Of a DNA stretch of 22,165 nt, positions 3,556 through 10,395 are shown piece by piece. Numbering within the stretch: the stretch's first letter is position 1; the number at the start of each line of letters is the position of its first letter. The notes below the pieces were generated by a model that ran no database searches, had not been told where the DNA came from, and saw only the letters and a program-made list of their open reading frames with translations. The translations under genes and the position numbers were made by a program. Origin of the DNA: a virus; the IMG/VR virus record IMGVR_UViG_3300030101_002513, positions 1 through 22,165 of that record. One strand, 5' to 3'.

Positions 3556-3927
3556 CTAGTATGTCCACATAACTGGCGGTTTTGAATCTCGTACATCAAC
3601 GTGTACAAACGTATTCGCAATGCCAATTCCTCTGAATCCAAGTTTGATTGCTTCTCTGACAATGGTATACCTTTCAACTCCATTATTAACTTTAATGTCT
3701 GCTGCAAGTCCAAGGGCGTGGGTTCCAGCCTTGGTTTTTTTGGCTTCAATAGGATGAGTAGAGTCACGATAGCCAGAGGTAATAATAAAAGGAAATCCAC
3801 AGTTTTGCCTAAGTTTGTCTAGTTGACGTAATAATTTATCTTGTATTTCATTTTTACCAGTGTGTTGACATTTGAATTCACTCCTAAGGAAATACTCAGG
3901 AACAAAACTCTCTTCATAATTACTCAT
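3556..3927 (-). CDS. M15-family zinc peptidase, probable endolysin
   Basis: This 123-residue protein carries the Peptidase_M15_3 signature: SGYRDSTHPIEAKK, then GTHALGLAADI, then TFVHVDVRD. The expected zinc ligands are H70, D77 and H109. Family members are D-Ala-D-Ala-type carboxypeptidases or L-Ala-D-Glu-type endopeptidases that cut peptidoglycan cross-links, and phage copies usually act as endolysins at the end of infection. No signal peptide is present, so release would need a holin. The ATG at 3927 overlaps the terS stop by 8 bases and is preceded by GGAGAAG; a TTG at 3930 is possible but weaker. Its position between the two terminase genes is unusual. A virion-associated role is the main alternative. 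Confidence 0.88.
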   Translation of the reverse strand: MSNYEESFVPEYFLRSEFKCQHTGKNEIQDKLLRQLDKLRQNCGFPFIITSGYRDSTHPIEAKKTKAGTHALGLAADIKVNNGVERYTIVREAIKLGFRGIGIANTFVHVDVRDSKPPVMWTY

Positions 3928-4309
3928 CAATCACTTCTCCATCAATCGTTGAATCCCCTGAGGATACAATAGTTTCTCCACCAATACCTGTAATTGATAT
4001 ATTAATAGCACTCTTACCTCCACCTATCTTATCTTTTTCAAAATAGCTTAGAGGCATTATTCTGTCAACAACTAACTTCCATGCCGCAGCTTGGTTTTTA
4101 TGTTCGTTGTCCAAAGCAGCATCAAAGATTGACTCAAGAACCATACGAGATTTAGGAGATGACAACATCCTACTTTTATACTCATTGATAATAGCAGCAT
4201 CGCCCTTGGGCCTTCCTCTGGGTAAACCTGTGGCCCCTCTTTTCCTGACAACCATTTCAGACTTCTTGGGTCTTCCACGTTTACGCTTGGGAGGGTCTAT
4301 GTTATCCAT
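3920..4309 (-). CDS. terS: terminase small subunit with two AT-hooks
   Basis: This 129-residue protein is the first gene of the leftward arm. Two AT-hook cores are visible near the N-terminus, RGRPK at 11-15 and RGRPK at 31-35, each in a Lys/Arg-rich stretch that would bind the minor groove of AT-rich DNA. The middle, about residues 45-90, is helical with KNQAAAWKLVVDRIMP, a pattern I associate with small terminases of related podoviruses. The role would be recognition of the packaging start site and loading of TerL. The assignment rests mainly on position two genes before terL and on these motifs. The ribosome site is weak. Another DNA-binding regulator is the alternative. Confidence 0.7.
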   Translation of the reverse strand: MDNIDPPKRKRGRPKKSEMVVRKRGATGLPRGRPKGDAAIINEYKSRMLSSPKSRMVLESIFDAALDNEHKNQAAAWKLVVDRIMPLSYFEKDKIGGGKSAINISITGIGGETIVSSGDSTIDGEVIDE

Positions 4310-4335: not shown

Positions 4336-4392
4336 ATTACCTAAGGATAAAACAATTAGATAAATAATTAAAATTTTACCTTAGATTACCTA
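4336..4392. repeat. ATTACCTAAGG / TTAGATTACCTA motif copies near leftward promoter
   Basis: ATTACCTAAGG occurs at 4336-4346, and TTAGATTACCTA at 4381-4392 next to the predicted leftward start site. The same words fuse into one block at 6654-6668, just downstream of the main rightward promoter and including the Shine-Dalgarno of the SSB-like gene. This could be an operator or RNA element shared by both arms, but chance cannot be excluded by eye. Confidence 0.35.
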
Positions 4393-4395
4393 GAT

Positions 4396-4424
4396 ATTAT
4401 AACATATTTTTTAAACAATGTCAA
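4396..4424 (-). promoter_or_regulatory. consensus sigma70 promoter for the leftward (terminase/head) arm
   Basis: On the minus strand TTGACA (4424-4419), 17 bases, then TATAAT (4401-4396) match the bacterial consensus at all 12 positions. A TGT just before the -10 gives an extended -10. Transcription would start near 4389 and read into terS, 80 bases downstream. The surrounding word ATGTTATAATAT closely matches ATGTTATACTAT at the two rightward promoters. Confidence 0.85.
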
Positions 4425-4513
4425 GTCTTTTTTGTTGTCAATCCTCTTTTTTTTGTGTCTAGCAGGGTACATATAAATATTAACCTACGGCTGTCCCATG
4501 GGGGGGCCAAAAG

Positions 4514-4647
4514 TTATCCACAGGTTTTCAACAGTTTATCCACAGGTAATCCACAAGGAAAAGTTATCCACAGCTTATTCACAGGTTATCCAAGGTTGGC
4601 ATGATTCTTGCAAGAGTTAACCACAGGTTATCCACAGGTTATTCTTT
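4514..4647 (+). repeat. array of 11-bp iterons containing DnaA boxes (TTATCCACA)
   Basis: Exact TTATCCACA boxes start at 4514, 4536, 4564 and 4628. TTATTCACA (4575) also fits the TTATNCACA consensus. One-mismatch boxes are TAATCCACA (4547) and TTAACCACA (4617). More degenerate units start at 4525, 4586 and 4639. All point the same way. Within three runs (4514/4525/4536/4547, 4564/4575/4586 and 4617/4628/4639) spacing is exactly 11 bp, with the unit TTATCCACAGG. TTATCCACA is the high-affinity binding site of the bacterial initiator DnaA, and 11-bp same-strand spacing places sites on one helix face, as in cooperative DnaA filaments. Function as origin, DnaA sink or regulator is inference. Confidence 0.88.
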
Positions 4648-4681: not shown

Positions 4682-4710
4682 TTGACAAACCAGAGAAAAA
4701 AGTGTAGGCA
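4682..4710 (+). promoter_or_regulatory. possible rightward early promoter (good -35, poor -10)
   Basis: TTGACA is perfect at 4682-4687, but 17 bases on the -10 position reads TAGGCA, only two of six matches. It lies between the DnaA-box array and the first early gene and points towards it, so a promoter is expected in this area. An activator-dependent or non-sigma70 start would also fit. Confidence 0.3.
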
Positions 4711-4760
4711 CGGGCTCCTCTAGTGTTCCTCTACTACTACTATATATATGTCATTTAGTG
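4708..4760. other. DnaA-trio-like repeat and AT-rich candidate unwinding element
   Basis: After a GC-richer patch (4708-4720), the plus strand reads CTACTACTACTA and then TATATATATG. Read 3' to 5', the opposite strand is GATGATGATGAT, the consensus of DnaA-trios that guide DnaA onto single-stranded DNA in bacterial origins. The order of boxes, GC patch, trios and AT-rich DNA, and the strand polarity, match a basal unwinding system. The weakness is distance: the last good box ends at 4636, about 95 bases away, much further than in known cases. Confidence 0.45.
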
Positions 4761-4843
4761 ATATACCTATATTCATATAAGTTATGGTGGCTATTCATAA
4801 AATAAATTAGACAGCCTACCTTTATTAGTCCATTATTAACTCA

Positions 4844-4910: not shown

Positions 4911-5336
4911 ATGACTAAAAAAGAGATTTTCAAGAAGCTAAAAAAGGAATATTTGGACAACCTGAGCGTAGCAGCTTATATCAAATATCGAGACACGAGC
5001 TACTCTGTGACTGAGGCAGGAAAGGCAGAGAGAATGTATCGGGTTAGAGAATGGGAAAAGGACGCACACCAAATGGTTCAAATGATGAAACTGTTGGAAC
5101 TCCCGCAGAAATGGATAAATGATTTTAACGCATCAATGGAGCTCCTGACTTGGGAGGATTGTGAAGGAGAAATTGAGAATGGTGACTCCATACCTTGCAG
5201 TGCTCGTGAGATGTTCCTGTACGAAAAGGTTGTAAAAGGTTATGATAGGGCTAAAATCTTTGATGATTGCGGTAACTTCATCAAAAGAGAAAATAGTGTT
5301 CTGGACATTTTGGCAGAACAAAAACTCGCAGCATAG
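4911..5336 (+). CDS. unknown early protein, 141 aa
   Basis: This is the first gene of the rightward arm and I do not recognise the family. The protein is soluble, mixed-charge and mostly helical in appearance, with Trp residues in REWEKD, QKWIND and LTWEDCEGE. There is no signal peptide, membrane segment or Cys cluster. The start ATG at 4911 has AAGAGGA upstream. Its position next to the candidate origin, as the first early gene, would suit a host-takeover or origin-related protein. That is position-based inference only. Confidence 0.75.
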   Translation: MTKKEIFKKLKKEYLDNLSVAAYIKYRDTSYSVTEAGKAERMYRVREWEKDAHQMVQMMKLLELPQKWINDFNASMELLTWEDCEGEIENGDSIPCSAREMFLYEKVVKGYDRAKIFDDCGNFIKRENSVLDILAEQKLAA

Positions 5337-6022: not shown

Positions 6023-6159
6023 GATTTTCAACAAGTGATCAAACAGAGTTCTATGCAATGATTAATTTTGCAGTTACGACAGGGTTGACCTTTGAAGCTA
6101 CAACCTATTCTGATATGGATAAAGAATCCTATGAAATTGTCTTTACTGGGGGATTCTAA
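6019..6159 (+). CDS. unknown small protein, 46 aa
   Basis: This short frame starts at an ATG overlapping the previous stop (ATGA, 6019-6022) and ends at 6159, one base before the next ATG. GGGAG lies upstream. The peptide (MRFSTSDQTEFYAMINFAV, ending IVFTGGF) has no recognisable motif. Exact tiling between two other genes and the coupled start support it as real despite its length. Function is unknown. Confidence 0.55.
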   Translation: MRFSTSDQTEFYAMINFAVTTGLTFEATTYSDMDKESYEIVFTGGF

Positions 6160-6160
6160 A

Positions 6161-6352
6161 ATGCGATGTAGAGCCTGTAACACACTATTGACGGATGCTG
6201 AGTCAGTCAGGAAAGACCAGTTAACGAGAGAATATCTGGATATGTGTACAGAATGTTTGATTGCTGGGAATGTTGGCAGCATGGAACGATACGTGCAGAT
6301 TTCAGAATTCACAGAAGACGAAGATTTAGTTTTGATAAATTACGGAGCATGA
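6161..6352 (+). CDS. small zinc-ribbon-like protein, 63 aa
   Basis: Two Cys pairs, C3-x2-C6 (CRAC) and C29-x2-C32 (CTEC), are spaced as in a zinc ribbon or treble-clef knuckle, followed by an acidic C-terminus (SEFTEDEDLVLINYGA). Start ATG 6161 follows the previous stop directly; the longer frame from 6092 lies inside the neighbouring gene. Such small zinc proteins in phage early regions commonly bind nucleic acid or host polymerase, but the target is unknown. Confidence 0.65.
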   Translation: MRCRACNTLLTDAESVRKDQLTREYLDMCTECLIAGNVGSMERYVQISEFTEDEDLVLINYGA

Positions 6353-6353
6353 C

Positions 6354-6584
6354 ATGATTACTAGAATACACGTAAACCAACACAACATTAGAGCCAACAG
6401 CAAAGGCGCAGATTTGCCAGTATTGACAGTAAAGGATTACAAAGAAAACCGGAAATACAATTTTGTAATGATTTTGGATGCAAAGGACAGACCAGTAGCT
6501 AAAGTAGTCTATAGCCCTGATAAACCACTATCTTGTGGTGCAAAAGTTTGGATCGAAACAGAATTAAATGTTGAAGGGGTTTGA
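6354..6584 (+). CDS. conserved-looking phage protein, 76 aa, unknown function
   Basis: This 76-residue protein begins MITRIHVNQHNIRANSKG and continues through VLTVKDYKENRKYNFVMIL to a strand-rich C-terminal half (AKVVYSPDKPLSCGAKVWIETE). I have the impression of similar small proteins in other phages but cannot name a family with a known role. The fold looks mostly beta. ATG 6354 follows the previous stop by one base with GGAG upstream. It ends at the -35 of the main middle promoter, so it is the last gene of the early cluster. Confidence 0.7.
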   Translation: MITRIHVNQHNIRANSKGADLPVLTVKDYKENRKYNFVMILDAKDRPVAKVVYSPDKPLSCGAKVWIETELNVEGV

Positions 6585-6609
6585 CAAGTGGTCTAAAAAA
6601 TGTTATACT
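6581..6609 (+). promoter_or_regulatory. strong sigma70 promoter for the replication module
   Basis: TTGACA (6581-6586), 17 bases, then TATACT (6604-6609) with an extended -10 TGT. Predicted start is near 6616. The downstream leader reaches a very strong TAAGGAGGG ribosome site (6664-6672) before the SSB-like gene. From 6600 to 6621 the sequence is identical at 21 of 22 positions to 11825-11846 at the second rightward promoter. Confidence 0.85.
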
Positions 6610-6653
6610 ATTACTATGATTATGTTTAGTTATTAATCATTTTGTTTTTAACT

Positions 6654-6668
6654 TTAGATTACCTAAGG
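6654..6668 (+). repeat. TTAGATTACCTAAGG motif overlapping a ribosome site
   Basis: This 15-base block contains both TTAGATTACCTA (also at 4381-4392) and ATTACCTAAGG (also at 4336-4346). Its last bases are part of the Shine-Dalgarno of the SSB-like gene, so a protein or RNA bound here could affect translation. ATTACCTAA also occurs at 14406-14414. Confidence 0.35.
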
Positions 6669-6678
6669 AGGGTAGCGT

Positions 6679-7077
6679 ATGAAAAACAATAGCATGGCAG
6701 TAGAAGGCACAGTAGCATTTTCGTGCCTAACGAGTCCTGATGTGTATCAGGGTAAAGAGACAGGCTGGTATCATCTAGTCCTGAATTTACCTGAGGACAC
6801 AGCAGAAACATTGAAGAAAAAGGGCGTGAAGGTTAAGGACTATGAGGGTAGTCTTCAACGTAAATTCAAAACCAAGTCCAGCAGGATTCCTATGTTTGAT
6901 GAGACAGAAGAAGGTAATCCGGTAGAATGGTTGTCCGGTGAAATACCCAGAGGGTCTAGGGTGCGTATTTTGGCAGGTTTCCCAGATACTGCGGATGATA
7001 AATGGGGTCTGTCCACATACCTTAACAGGGTGAAAATCCTTGAGGTAGCGGAACAGGCAGAACTGGCAGATTTCTAA
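6679..7077 (+). CDS. probable single-stranded DNA-binding protein (T7 gp2.5-like role)
   Basis: This 132-residue protein sits directly before the primase-helicase, as SSB genes do in many phages. The core has alternating strands (EGTVAFSCL, GWYHLVLNLP, RGSRVRILAGF, STYLNRVKILEV) compatible with an OB fold, plus basic patches such as LKKKGVKVK and RKFKTKSSR. The short C-terminal tail is acidic and ends in -DF, like the acidic aromatic-ended tails of T7 gp2.5 and other SSBs that dock on polymerase and helicase. The start has a very strong ribosome site, suggesting high expression. Direct homology to a named SSB family is not certain; context and tail carry the call. Confidence 0.65.
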   Translation: MKNNSMAVEGTVAFSCLTSPDVYQGKETGWYHLVLNLPEDTAETLKKKGVKVKDYEGSLQRKFKTKSSRIPMFDETEEGNPVEWLSGEIPRGSRVRILAGFPDTADDKWGLSTYLNRVKILEVAEQAELADF

Positions 7078-8684
7078 TGTCGCATTTTGTCAAACATGAG
7101 CCATGCCCCAAGTGTGGCTCTAAGGACAACCTAGCCAGATATTCAGATGGTCATGCAGTTTGTTTCTCTATGAATTGTGGACATTATGAACATGGTGACA
7201 ATAGTAATTTACTTGCAGCAGGTGTACTAAATAGAGGTCTGAAAATGGAAGGCACAGTGGCAGCTATTCCAGAGAGGAGAATCAGCAAAGATACGGCCTT
7301 AAAATATGGCGTAACTGTTGAATATGACTCTAGGGGTAAAATAGTAAAACATCACTATCCGTATCAGGACAAATCGACAGGGGAGACAGTAGGCACAAAA
7401 GTCAGGGCTTGTGACCCTAAACAGTTTTACAGTACAGGTACATTCCAGAATACCGGATTGTTTGGTCAGGATAAATTTAAGGAAGGAGGACGATATCTAA
7501 CGATTACAGAGGGTGAAGTATGTGCTATGGCTGCACATGAGATGTTCGATAGGAAATGGCCTGTTGTATCAATCAGATCAGGCGCATCCGGTGCAGCTAG
7601 GGATATAAAGGATAACCTAGAGTGGCTGGAAACATTTGAGAACGTGGTGATATGTTTCGATAGTGATAAGGCAGGACAGGATGCAGCTAAGTCAGTGTTG
7701 GATCTATTTAGCCCTAACAAAGCCAAGAATGTTGTTTTACCCTGTAAGGACGCAGGAGAGATGCTGGAGAACAACAGGGTAAAAGGTTTTGTTGAGGCAT
7801 GGTGGAACGCTAAGACATATCAACCGGACGGGATTGTTTCAGGTACGGATACTTGGGACATGATAACGGAAAGGGAGGACGTACTGATCTATCCGTATCC
7901 ATGGGCCTGTTTAAACGATTTAACCTATGGTTTCAGGGAGAGAGAGTTAGTTACAATCACCAGTGGTAGTGGGATGGGGAAGTCCCAGATAGTCAGGGAG
8001 CTCTCACATTACATACTAAACGCTACGGACGATAACATAGGCATCCTAGCACTTGAGGAGGATATACCAAGGACTGCCTTAGGTCTTATGTCGATTGAGG
8101 CTAATATGCCTCTACATCTCAGGGACGATATAGACTTAGATACAAAGAAACGATACTGGGATAATACACTAGGCACAGGGAGAGTGTTTTTGTTTGACCA
8201 CTGGGGCTCAACCAATGAGGATAACTTACTTTCCAGAATAAGATACATGGCTAAAGGTCTGGACTGTAAATGGATTGTGTTAGATCACCTGAGTATTGTG
8301 GTTAGTGATCAGGAAGTAGCAGACGAGCGTAAAGCAATTGATAGTATTATGACTAACTTACGCAAGCTGGTACAGGAGACAGGGATTGGTTTGTTCTTGG
8401 TCTCACATCTACGCAGACCCAGTGGTAAGGCACATGAGGACGGAGGGCAGATATCACTAGCTGAGTTACGTGGATCAGCAGCAATAGCTCAGTTAAGTGA
8501 TATGGTGATTGGACTAGAGAGGGATCAGCAAAATGCAGATGCTAAAGTACGTAACACCACTAACGTCAGGGTTCTCAAGAACAGATTTGCAGGGCTCACC
8601 GGACTCGCCTGTTATCTCTATTACAACAAGGATACCGGACGAATGGAGGAAACAACCTGTCCTACGGAAAACGGAGACTTTTAA
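7077..8684 (+). CDS. primase-helicase (T7 gp4-like)
   Basis: This 535-residue bifunctional enzyme unwinds the fork and makes primers. The N-terminal zinc knuckle has C10, C13, C29 and C34 (CPKC ... C-x4-C), needed for template recognition. The Toprim primase domain shows TEGE (E145, E147) and FDSD (D195, D197). The RecA-like hexameric helicase domain shows Walker A SGSGMGKS (296-303), Walker B IVLDH (D403) and LVSH (H444). The length is close to T7 gp4 (566). The ATG overlaps the SSB-like stop (TAATG). The C-terminus ends TENGDF; in T7 the acidic aromatic-ended tail of the helicase contacts polymerase. The gene is intact. Confidence 0.95.
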   Translation: MSHFVKHEPCPKCGSKDNLARYSDGHAVCFSMNCGHYEHGDNSNLLAAGVLNRGLKMEGTVAAIPERRISKDTALKYGVTVEYDSRGKIVKHHYPYQDKSTGETVGTKVRACDPKQFYSTGTFQNTGLFGQDKFKEGGRYLTITEGEVCAMAAHEMFDRKWPVVSIRSGASGAARDIKDNLEWLETFENVVICFDSDKAGQDAAKSVLDLFSPNKAKNVVLPCKDAGEMLENNRVKGFVEAWWNAKTYQPDGIVSGTDTWDMITEREDVLIYPYPWACLNDLTYGFRERELVTITSGSGMGKSQIVRELSHYILNATDDNIGILALEEDIPRTALGLMSIEANMPLHLRDDIDLDTKKRYWDNTLGTGRVFLFDHWGSTNEDNLLSRIRYMAKGLDCKWIVLDHLSIVVSDQEVADERKAIDSIMTNLRKLVQETGIGLFLVSHLRRPSGKAHEDGGQISLAELRGSAAIAQLSDMVIGLERDQQNADAKVRNTTNVRVLKNRFAGLTGLACYLYYNKDTGRMEETTCPTENGDF

Positions 8685-8685
8685 C

Positions 8686-10395
8686 ATGAAGTATATTTTT
8701 CTGGACGCTGAGACTGACGGACTAGATCCAACTGTTATCCATTGTGTGTGTTGTCGTTGTGATGGTAAAGAGTTTTGGACTAGCCATCCTCAGGAATTAC
8801 AAGAGTACATCGAAGGTAACGCTATTGTAGGCCACAATATCATAGGCTACGATAAACCAGTGCTGGAGAAACTCTGGGGTACAGACTTTAGTAGTTGTAA
8901 GATAGTTGATACGCTAGTAATGTCCAGACTTGCAGATCCATGCAGGGATGGTGGACACTCCCTACGTAACTGGGGAGAGTACCTTAGGATGCCCAAGGGC
9001 GATCAAAAGGAGTTCGATACCTTTACACCTGAGATGCTGGAGTATTGCCAGCAGGACGTTAAGATAACTGAGGAAGTATTCAAAAGGTTATCATTGGACT
9101 TAGAGGATTTCTCTGAGTTGAGTTTGGATCTGGAACATGACGTACAAATACTGATTAGCCATCAGATTAAACATGGCTGGATGATTGATGAGAAACACGC
9201 ATTTTTATTATTAGCAGAACTAAAGGAGAAAAAACATGACATTGAAGACAAGGTACTACAAACTTTCAAACCGCTTCCTGTATTTATCAAGAAGATTACG
9301 CCAAAGACTAAAAAAGATGGTAAAATCTCTGTCGTAGGACTGAAGTTCCTTGGGGATGCTTGGGAGTTTGTTGGCGGTGACTTTAGCCGTATCGATTACG
9401 AACAGTTCAACCTAGGGTCACGCCAACAGATAGGCAGGTATCTACAGTATTTTGGGTGGAAACCTGAGAAGTTCACTGAGACCGGACAACCAGTAGTTGA
9501 TGAAAAGGTACTGGCTACTATCAAAGATATTCCTGAGGCAGCACTGATCTCTGAGTATCTAACTATACAGAAACGTATAGCACAGATACAATCATGGGTG
9601 GATGCTGTTCAGTCTGATGGTAGGGTGCATGGTTACGTTAACCCTAACGGCACGATTACAGGCAGGATGACACATTCCAAACCTAACATGGGGCAGATAC
9701 CAGCAGTTTATTCCCCTTGGGGTACTGAGTGCAGAGAGTGTTGGATTGTACCTAAGGGTTACAAACTGGTAGGCATGGATGCCTCAGGTCTGGAGTTGCG
9801 TATGCTGGCCCATTACATGAATGACAAGGAGTTTACTAATGAAATTCTCACAGGAGACATACACAAAACTAATCAGCTTAATGCAGGACTCAGAACAAGA
9901 GACCAAGCTAAGACTTTTATTTATGCTTTCCTATATGGTGCCGGAGATGTTAAGATTGGCAACATCGTTGGAGGAGATGCAGTGGATGGTAGAAGACTTA
10001 AAGACAAGTTCCTCAAAAATACGCCAGCACTTGCAGAACTACGAGAAAGAGTTGGACGAGCAGCTACAAGAGGCCATCTTTACGGATTGGATAGGAGAAG
10101 GGTCTATGTACGATCAGAACACAGTGCATTAAATACGTTACTTCAGTCAGCAGGTAGTATCGTTATGAAGAAAGCTCTATCGTTATTGAGCTATCATGCT
10201 GACGTAAACAACATTGATTATCACTTTGTAGGTAACATACACGATGAGATCCAGACGGAAGTACGACAGGAGATGGCACAGCAATACGGCACTCTGGCGG
10301 TGGATTCGATTGAGGAGACAGGAAGGTTCTTTGAACTCAACTGTCCACTTACCGGAGAATACAAAATTGGAGACAACTGGGCAGAGACCCACTAA
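8686..10395 (+). CDS. DNA polymerase, family A, T7 gp5-like, with 3'-5' exonuclease
   Basis: This 569-residue replicative polymerase has exonuclease motifs LDAETDG (D7, E9), GHNIIGYD and YCQQD. Polymerase motif A is MDASGLELRMLAHYM (D365), motif B RDQAKTFIYAFLYGAG (405-420) and motif C IHDE (H519-D520). The residue matching E. coli Pol I F762 is Y413, as in T7; Tyr or Phe here is usually linked with virulent phages. The stretch from KPLP to GSRQQI aligns with the thumb loop that binds host thioredoxin in T7 and is only slightly shorter. The protein is shorter than T7 gp5 (704). ATG 8686 lies one base after the helicase stop; an in-frame start at 8533 inside that gene is rejected. Confidence 0.95.
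   Translation: MKYIFLDAETDGLDPTVIHCVCCRCDGKEFWTSHPQELQEYIEGNAIVGHNIIGYDKPVLEKLWGTDFSSCKIVDTLVMSRLADPCRDGGHSLRNWGEYLRMPKGDQKEFDTFTPEMLEYCQQDVKITEEVFKRLSLDLEDFSELSLDLEHDVQILISHQIKHGWMIDEKHAFLLLAELKEKKHDIEDKVLQTFKPLPVFIKKITPKTKKDGKISVVGLKFLGDAWEFVGGDFSRIDYEQFNLGSRQQIGRYLQYFGWKPEKFTETGQPVVDEKVLATIKDIPEAALISEYLTIQKRIAQIQSWVDAVQSDGRVHGYVNPNGTITGRMTHSKPNMGQIPAVYSPWGTECRECWIVPKGYKLVGMDASGLELRMLAHYMNDKEFTNEILTGDIHKTNQLNAGLRTRDQAKTFIYAFLYGAGDVKIGNIVGGDAVDGRRLKDKFLKNTPALAELRERVGRAATRGHLYGLDRRRVYVRSEHSALNTLLQSAGSIVMKKALSLLSYHADVNNIDYHFVGNIHDEIQTEVRQEMAQQYGTLAVDSIEETGRFFELNCPLTGEYKIGDNWAETH

Follow-up and report, generated by a model that had tools for sequence, protein, structure and literature searches.

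A phased array of DnaA boxes in an exchangeable control slot of uncultured marine phages with a T7-like replisome: a candidate docking module for host DnaA

Gene content of the phage and its relatives

The window, i.e., the whole stretch of DNA analysed here, is a virus record of 22,165 bases that represents a partial genome. Its leftward-transcribed left arm codes for a portal protein, TerL, an M15 peptidase and, closest to the control region, a probable terminase small subunit (TerS). The right arm runs rightward through small genes to those for an SSB-like protein, a primase-helicase, a DNA polymerase, nucleases, and a ribonucleotide reductase (RNR), and is followed by leftward genes (Table 1). 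The DnaA boxes described below lie in the divergent control region, beyond the TerS gene (hereafter the slot), directly upstream of the operon with the SSB, primase-helicase, and polymerase genes. As originally predicted, the phage has a replisome of its own, with the primase-helicase and a PolA-type DNA polymerase encoded in one operon (phrog_239 and phrog_17) and a weak match of the SSB to phrog_112. Its designation as a T7-type phage holds for this replisome but not for the RNA polymerase (RNAP): the T7-type enzyme (PF00940) was detected in none of the 22 family records searched, near-complete ones included, by a search that does find the T7 protein, and the RNAP-primed origin expected of such a phage therefore appears to be missing here. 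A phage DnaA and a phage sigma-54 activator of the PF00158 type were also looked for and not found, and no recognisable initiator was seen among the early proteins tested. Comparison of the early-region genes gave no family restricted to array carriers.

Its relatives form a large, uncultured, marine family with genomes of about 35-37 kb. Closure of related records, at lengths of about 35.4-36.7 kb, rests on exactly overlapping ends in G004 and G005 and, judged by eye, on nearly exact overlap in G010 and G014. A genome scan for the host found only distant primases in MAGs (34-47% identity); the long relatives have no tRNA genes, and RNR matches in plasmids fall below 36%. Alternative early genes, with products that are either GP88-like (PF17338, phrog_1617) or a phrog_2554 protein, occur near the slot in three relatives (L049, 6338-7171; L001, 7699-8463; L007, 5726-6484).

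Architecture of the DnaA-box array

Nine boxes on the plus strand make up the array, namely four exact copies of TTATCCACA, one TTATTCACA, and four others with one or two mismatches, which amounts to four exact boxes, three with one mismatch, and two with two. Within each of the three runs the box starts are exactly 11 bp apart, the between-run gaps being 17 and 31 bp, and the minus strand of the array region holds no box at up to two mismatches. The original prediction of such an array in a divergent control region, on one strand, in 11-bp steps, and in three runs, is thereby confirmed, except that its tail box at 4639-4647 (TTATTCTTT) has four mismatches and is not credible, so that the array ends at 4636. 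Five same-strand matches to TTAT[CT]CACA were observed within 134 bp, against a maximum of two (reached three times) in 1000 first-order Markov sequences simulated from the same 22-kb window, and all four exact boxes of the window (4/4) lie inside the array. The boxes, their phase, and their strand are thus far beyond chance, and the several TTATCCACA matches in excess of chance identify a DnaA-box cluster. Given the box consensus, the phase, and the recurrence described below, we predict that host DnaA very likely binds the array.

A GC cluster directly precedes the first box. Most relatives have a run such as CCCCCCCGCCCCC at this position, their first box coming after the GC run. Further out, the slot is flanked on the left, and in many members on the right too, by a family element of roughly the form GTATRCYNGYGGRTAC, of which the copies in the window are divergent; where long genomes have the strict GTATRCYNGYGGRTAC-type motif, it is confined to the slot flanks. 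On either side of the array lies one of the three least stable 60-bp stretches in the window (Table 1), but the AT-rich stretches of the relatives lie at varying distances.

Bacterial basal unwinding systems are recognised by three or more DnaA-trios no farther than 16 bp from a box (PMC8287927). No conserved trio element was found within this distance of a box, most relatives having none, and the best trio run of the window was equalled in 33 of 100 shuffles. The stretch to the right of the array does contain a perfect run of DnaA-trio form, CTACTACTACTA, which is found in this window only; it has the right orientation (with the E. coli arrangement as we read it) but lies 94 bp past the last box, and was rejected as a trio element. 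GC skew, earlier suggested as a check for an origin at the array, speaks neither for nor against one: its sign follows gene orientation and flips again at ~14.4 kb, where only the gene direction changes, and it was dropped as origin evidence.

Table 1. Features of the control region and the neighbouring genes in the window
Feature	Position	Strand	Remarks
Probable terminase small subunit gene	3920..4309	-	The left-arm gene nearest the slot; role assigned from position
Least stable 60-bp stretch of the window	4355..4414		Left of the array; nearest-neighbour energies
Left flanking element, GTGTCTAGCAGGGTAC	4455..4470	+	Divergent copy of the family element GTATRCYNGYGGRTAC; by eye against relatives
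GC cluster, CCCATGGGGGGGCC	4491..4508		Directly precedes the array
DnaA-box run 1	4514..4555	+	Four boxes, 11-bp phase: 4514 TTATCCACA, exact; 4525 TTTTCAACA, 2 mismatches; 4536 TTATCCACA, exact; 4547 TAATCCACA, 1 mismatch
DnaA-box run 2	4564..4594	+	Three boxes, 11-bp phase: 4564 TTATCCACA, exact; 4575 TTATTCACA, 1 mismatch; 4586 TTATCCAAG, 2 mismatches
Sigma-54 type -24/-12 promoter, TGGCATGATTCTTGCA	4597..4612	+	Between runs 2 and 3, toward the early genes; consensus match
DnaA-box run 3	4617..4636	+	Two boxes, 11-bp phase: 4617 TTAACCACA, 1 mismatch; 4628 TTATCCACA, exact
TTGACA, -35-like hexamer	4682..4687	+	Consensus only; many relatives have it next to the right flanking element too
Probable right flanking element, GTGTAGGCACGGGCTCC	4702..4718	+	Equivalent of the relatives' GTGTGAGTATGCTAGTGGATACC; by eye, weak in the window
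Third least stable 60-bp stretch of the window	4725..4784		Right of the array; holds CTACTACTACTA at 4731-4742
First gene of the early (right) arm	4911..5336	+	No known family
T7-like replisome: SSB-like protein, primase-helicase, DNA polymerase	6679..10395	+	SSB-like match weak

Recurrence and exchange of the array at the slot

Relatives were gathered by primase and TerL scans, which yielded at least 597 contigs with kin of TerL. The stretch past TerS was collected in 67 distinct copies, 61 of which were found without use of the boxes and constitute an unbiased set. Of these 61 slots, 31 contain three or more boxes, each with no more than one mismatch, in a stretch of 200 bp. All 103 exact boxes of the set lie on the early-gene (plus) strand and none on the other (0.4 expected); of the 97 neighbour spacings, 62 are exact multiples of 11. 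Conservation in relatives, proposed earlier as a check, thus gives a mixed result: the array is present in half of the wider family but not in the nearest relative (L001; 99% identical in TerS, 98% in TerL, and 98% in RNR), which lacks any box; the complete genome G005 likewise has zero exact boxes. In a distant relative (L103), six boxes with up to one mismatch follow the GC run, all of them in the opposite direction.

What occupies the slot in place of the array varies. In L001, several palindromic repeats (GGTTAGTAAGTACTAACTTCAGAAT-type and GTTAGTAAGTACTAAC) at 6310-6480 are followed by four sigma-54 sites; its palindrome was found in 90 stretches of the viral collection, almost all single copies, and offered no lead. 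GC-rich repeats of the CACACCTGCG type fill the slots of five further relatives (L012, L017, L022, L074, and L250). The GC-rich slot repeats CACACCTGCG and GTACACACGCG are mostly alternating purine-pyrimidine (L012, 7038-7250; L017, 590-830; L074, 620-850; and L250). Exchange is also seen between near-identical phages: L096 and L284 share 99.8% of TerL, and four boxes are present in one and remnants only in the other. Mapped on the TerL tree, the array calls for at least 11 gains or losses on well-supported branches, a number to which recombination between terminase and slot can add. The slot content is exchangeable, and the array is optional. Binding of the array by a pac-type terminase was ruled out as an explanation: the TerS and TerL of L001 are 98-99% identical to those of the window while its slot content is wholly different, so the terminase cannot be reading the boxes.

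A phased array that comes and goes at a single slot, between conserved flanks and beside a near-identical terminase, amounts to a natural exchange experiment, one that would show how a phage replisome plugs into the host initiator and whether phages sense or use the timing of host replication.

Sigma-54 type promoters and an alternative inverted repeat

The sigma-54 type promoter between runs 2 and 3 of the window likewise belongs to a wider pattern. On the early-gene strand, TGGCAY-N5-TTGCW occurs in 41 copies against 0.03 expected (an enrichment of ~1000-fold), distributed over 23 of the 61 unbiased slots, and in most array members that have it the motif starts 9-13 bp past the last box. Arrays are present in 19 of these 23 slots as against 12 of the 38 others (p=1.6e-4), which leaves 12 of the 31 array slots without a sigma-54 site. 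A second element, the 26-bp inverted repeat GTGAC-N16-GTCAC, is found in 43 copies against 0 expected in the 61 slots, and arrays are less common in the inverted-repeat set (5 of its 28 members) than in the sigma-54 set. It occurs together with the sigma-54 motif in none of the 61 slots (p=2.8e-9), and this mutual exclusion indicates that the slot carries at least two alternative regulatory sets.

Up to four sigma-54 type promoters are seen per control region (L001 at 6484-6668, L039, L049, L063, L070, L073, L076, and others). The inverted-repeat slots include those of L015, L024, L033, L050, L225, L226, L243, L246, L275, L282, L295, and others, in some of which second copies of the repeat occur past the early promoter, e.g., near 6592 in L033. 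Promoters of the sigma-54 class depend on an AAA+ activator and on RpoN in the host, and we know of few reports of promoters of this type in phages.

Comparison with other phages and known DnaA-binding systems

DnaA boxes in phages have been known singly, and in the literature searched, which covered DnaA boxes with phage origins or with terminal repeats of T7-like phages as well as sigma-54 promoters in phages, no description of such arrays was found. What is new is the exchangeable slot and the coupling to sigma-54, not DnaA boxes in phages as such. The original prediction regarded a DnaA array as unexpected in a phage with its own replisome. This view did not survive the comparison with T7-like isolates, for Shigella phage A7 (MK685668) and Enterobacter phage phiEap-1 (KT321314), the latter with an annotated RNA polymerase, carry arrays at both ends of their records, in terminal repeats of 177 and 195 bp, respectively. 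Similar arrays are present in P483 (Berlinvirus) and Klebsiella phage Kp7, and T7 itself has CCTAAAG repeats at the corresponding place in its terminal repeat. In the Berlinviruses A7 and P483, the Eapunavirus phiEap-1, and Kp7, as in the window, the TTATCCACA boxes lie on the same strand, mostly 11-30 bp apart, and the array is placed between the terminase genome end and the early genes. However, the boxes of these isolates point the other way relative to early transcription, no sigma-54 sites were seen beside the arrays displayed, and A7 and phiEap-1 further differ in the terminal-repeat location and the latter in its RNA polymerase annotation.

T5-like phages also have DnaA boxes, in Slocum at 6090-6490 within a divergently transcribed, pre-early stretch, near the terminal repeat and injection stop signal (PMC13250531), but these are few and scattered, form no 11-bp array, and go with a two-step DNA transfer that is specific to T5-like phages. 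With the low-affinity arrays and R boxes of the E. coli oriC the array shares the 2-bp gap between neighbouring boxes (PMC6727663), but the phage boxes are mostly of the high-affinity consensus, and no DnaA-trio or fixed unwinding element was found. The predicted DnaA sites also have a counterpart at the lambda origin and pR/pO, where DnaA stimulates transcriptional activation and its sites adjoin promoters in the replication region of the phage (PMC3985674); lambda differs in having its own initiator O with iterons, whereas no initiator gene was recognised here. Like datA, the array is a DnaA-box cluster outside an established origin, but it is compact and phased, and it goes together with promoters and flanking repeats.

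Possible functions of the array

The reading that we tentatively prefer is that the array constitutes a predicted docking module for host DnaA that helps to start phage replication or the early programme. At the start of the early/replication operon, host DnaA would dock on the array between its flanking repeats and would fill the runs cooperatively, the boxes being 2 bp apart on one strand; the same separation permits cooperative filling of the low-affinity arrays of the E. coli oriC (PMC6727663). The resulting complex might help to open the adjoining AT-rich DNA, which would allow the ring-shaped primase-helicase and the polymerase of the phage to load, while transcription from the adjoining promoters of the sigma-54 and sigma-70-like types would help, roughly as at the lambda origin, where host DnaA and transcription act at a phage origin (PMC3985674). 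What the analysis shows is the boxes with their phase and strand, their recurrence in one slot, the exchange, the sigma-54 motif, and no detected phage RNAP or DnaA; we infer DnaA binding, melting, and loading, and that replication and not transcription alone is served. Other members of the family would use different repeats or the inverted repeat in the same slot, leaving the module optional, and this optional nature points to a plug-in rather than the sole way to start. The array is thus probably an optional way of launching the phage programme through host DnaA. More speculative, and in its entirety rather doubtful, is the generalisation that a virulent family with a T7-like replisome and no detected RNAP starts this replisome by means of exchangeable initiator cassettes, in one form of which the DnaA array with sigma-54 would replace a phage initiator, sister phages swapping in other repeats.

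A start of replication at the array, also suggested by the original prediction, is favoured by the two unstable stretches that flank it, by its position upstream of the replisome operon in phages in which no RNAP, DnaA, or initiator was detected, and by the phase and strand of the boxes, their recurrence, the start after a GC cluster, the oriC-like 2-bp separation, and the lambda precedent. Against it count the roughly half of the family that has the same replisome without an array, including L001 and also G005 with its lack of exact boxes, the absence of a conserved DnaA-trio, and the variable distance of the AT-rich flank. By the T7 precedent, T7-like phages would have an RNAP-primed origin away from their terminal repeats, so that the arrays in such phages may do something other than start replication; moreover, many members keep a fixed spacing between array and sigma-54 promoter, which speaks for transcription.

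The foremost alternative, which we still regard as unlikely, is that DnaA on the array regulates the adjoining sigma-54 and TTGACA-type early promoters, coupling the early or late programme of the phage to host DnaA, and that replication starts elsewhere. This possibility of a DnaA-controlled switch, raised by the original prediction, gains new weight from the sigma-54 promoter beside the array. It is favoured by the presence of the motif in 23 slots and its 9-13 bp spacing from the last box in most array members that have it, by the co-occurrence of motif and array, and by the exclusion between motif and inverted repeat as alternative regulatory sets; moreover, L001 keeps four sigma-54 sites, with palindromic repeats replacing the array at the position of an activator site. 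However, the 12 array slots that lack a sigma-54 site do not fit it, a host activator would be needed as no phage one of the PF00158 type was found, and we know of no case of DnaA activating the sigma-54 polymerase.

A further proposal, likewise among those of the original prediction and with a low probability, is that the array soaks up host DnaA and thereby halts new rounds of host replication, in the manner of datA or of synthetic box arrays. The exact, high-affinity, and tightly clustered boxes, the gain and loss of arrays with little other change, and the similar arrays in first-entering or terminal regions of unrelated phages are all compatible with such a sink, but a sink would work at any place, on either strand, and at any distance from a promoter, all three of which are conserved here, and the few boxes per genome would matter to the DnaA pool only after many phage copies had been made. 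The least probable of these readings takes the slot for the physical terminus of the genome, or for part of a short terminal repeat, with the boxes taking part in the entry of DNA, the protection of its ends, or the processing of concatemers, a role suspected for the T5 injection stop signal. In its favour, the slot adjoins the terminase genes, the A7 and phiEap-1 arrays lie within terminal repeats where T7 has its CCTAAAG repeats, and DnaA boxes are described as part of the injection stop signal of T5 (PMC13250531). Against it, the near-identical terminase of L001 does not read the boxes, the assembled genomes close elsewhere (termini not being readable from assemblies), and contig ends show no clear pile-up at the slot beyond three near the GC run.

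The tie to sigma-54, together with the arrays in the terminal repeats of laboratory T7-like phages, makes the question of function testable with cultured phages. Box clusters also occur in Lactococcus, Limnohabitans, and Vibrio phages, and across the whole collection the tandem-box pattern was found in at least 120 stretches, against 69 for the reversed-pattern control.
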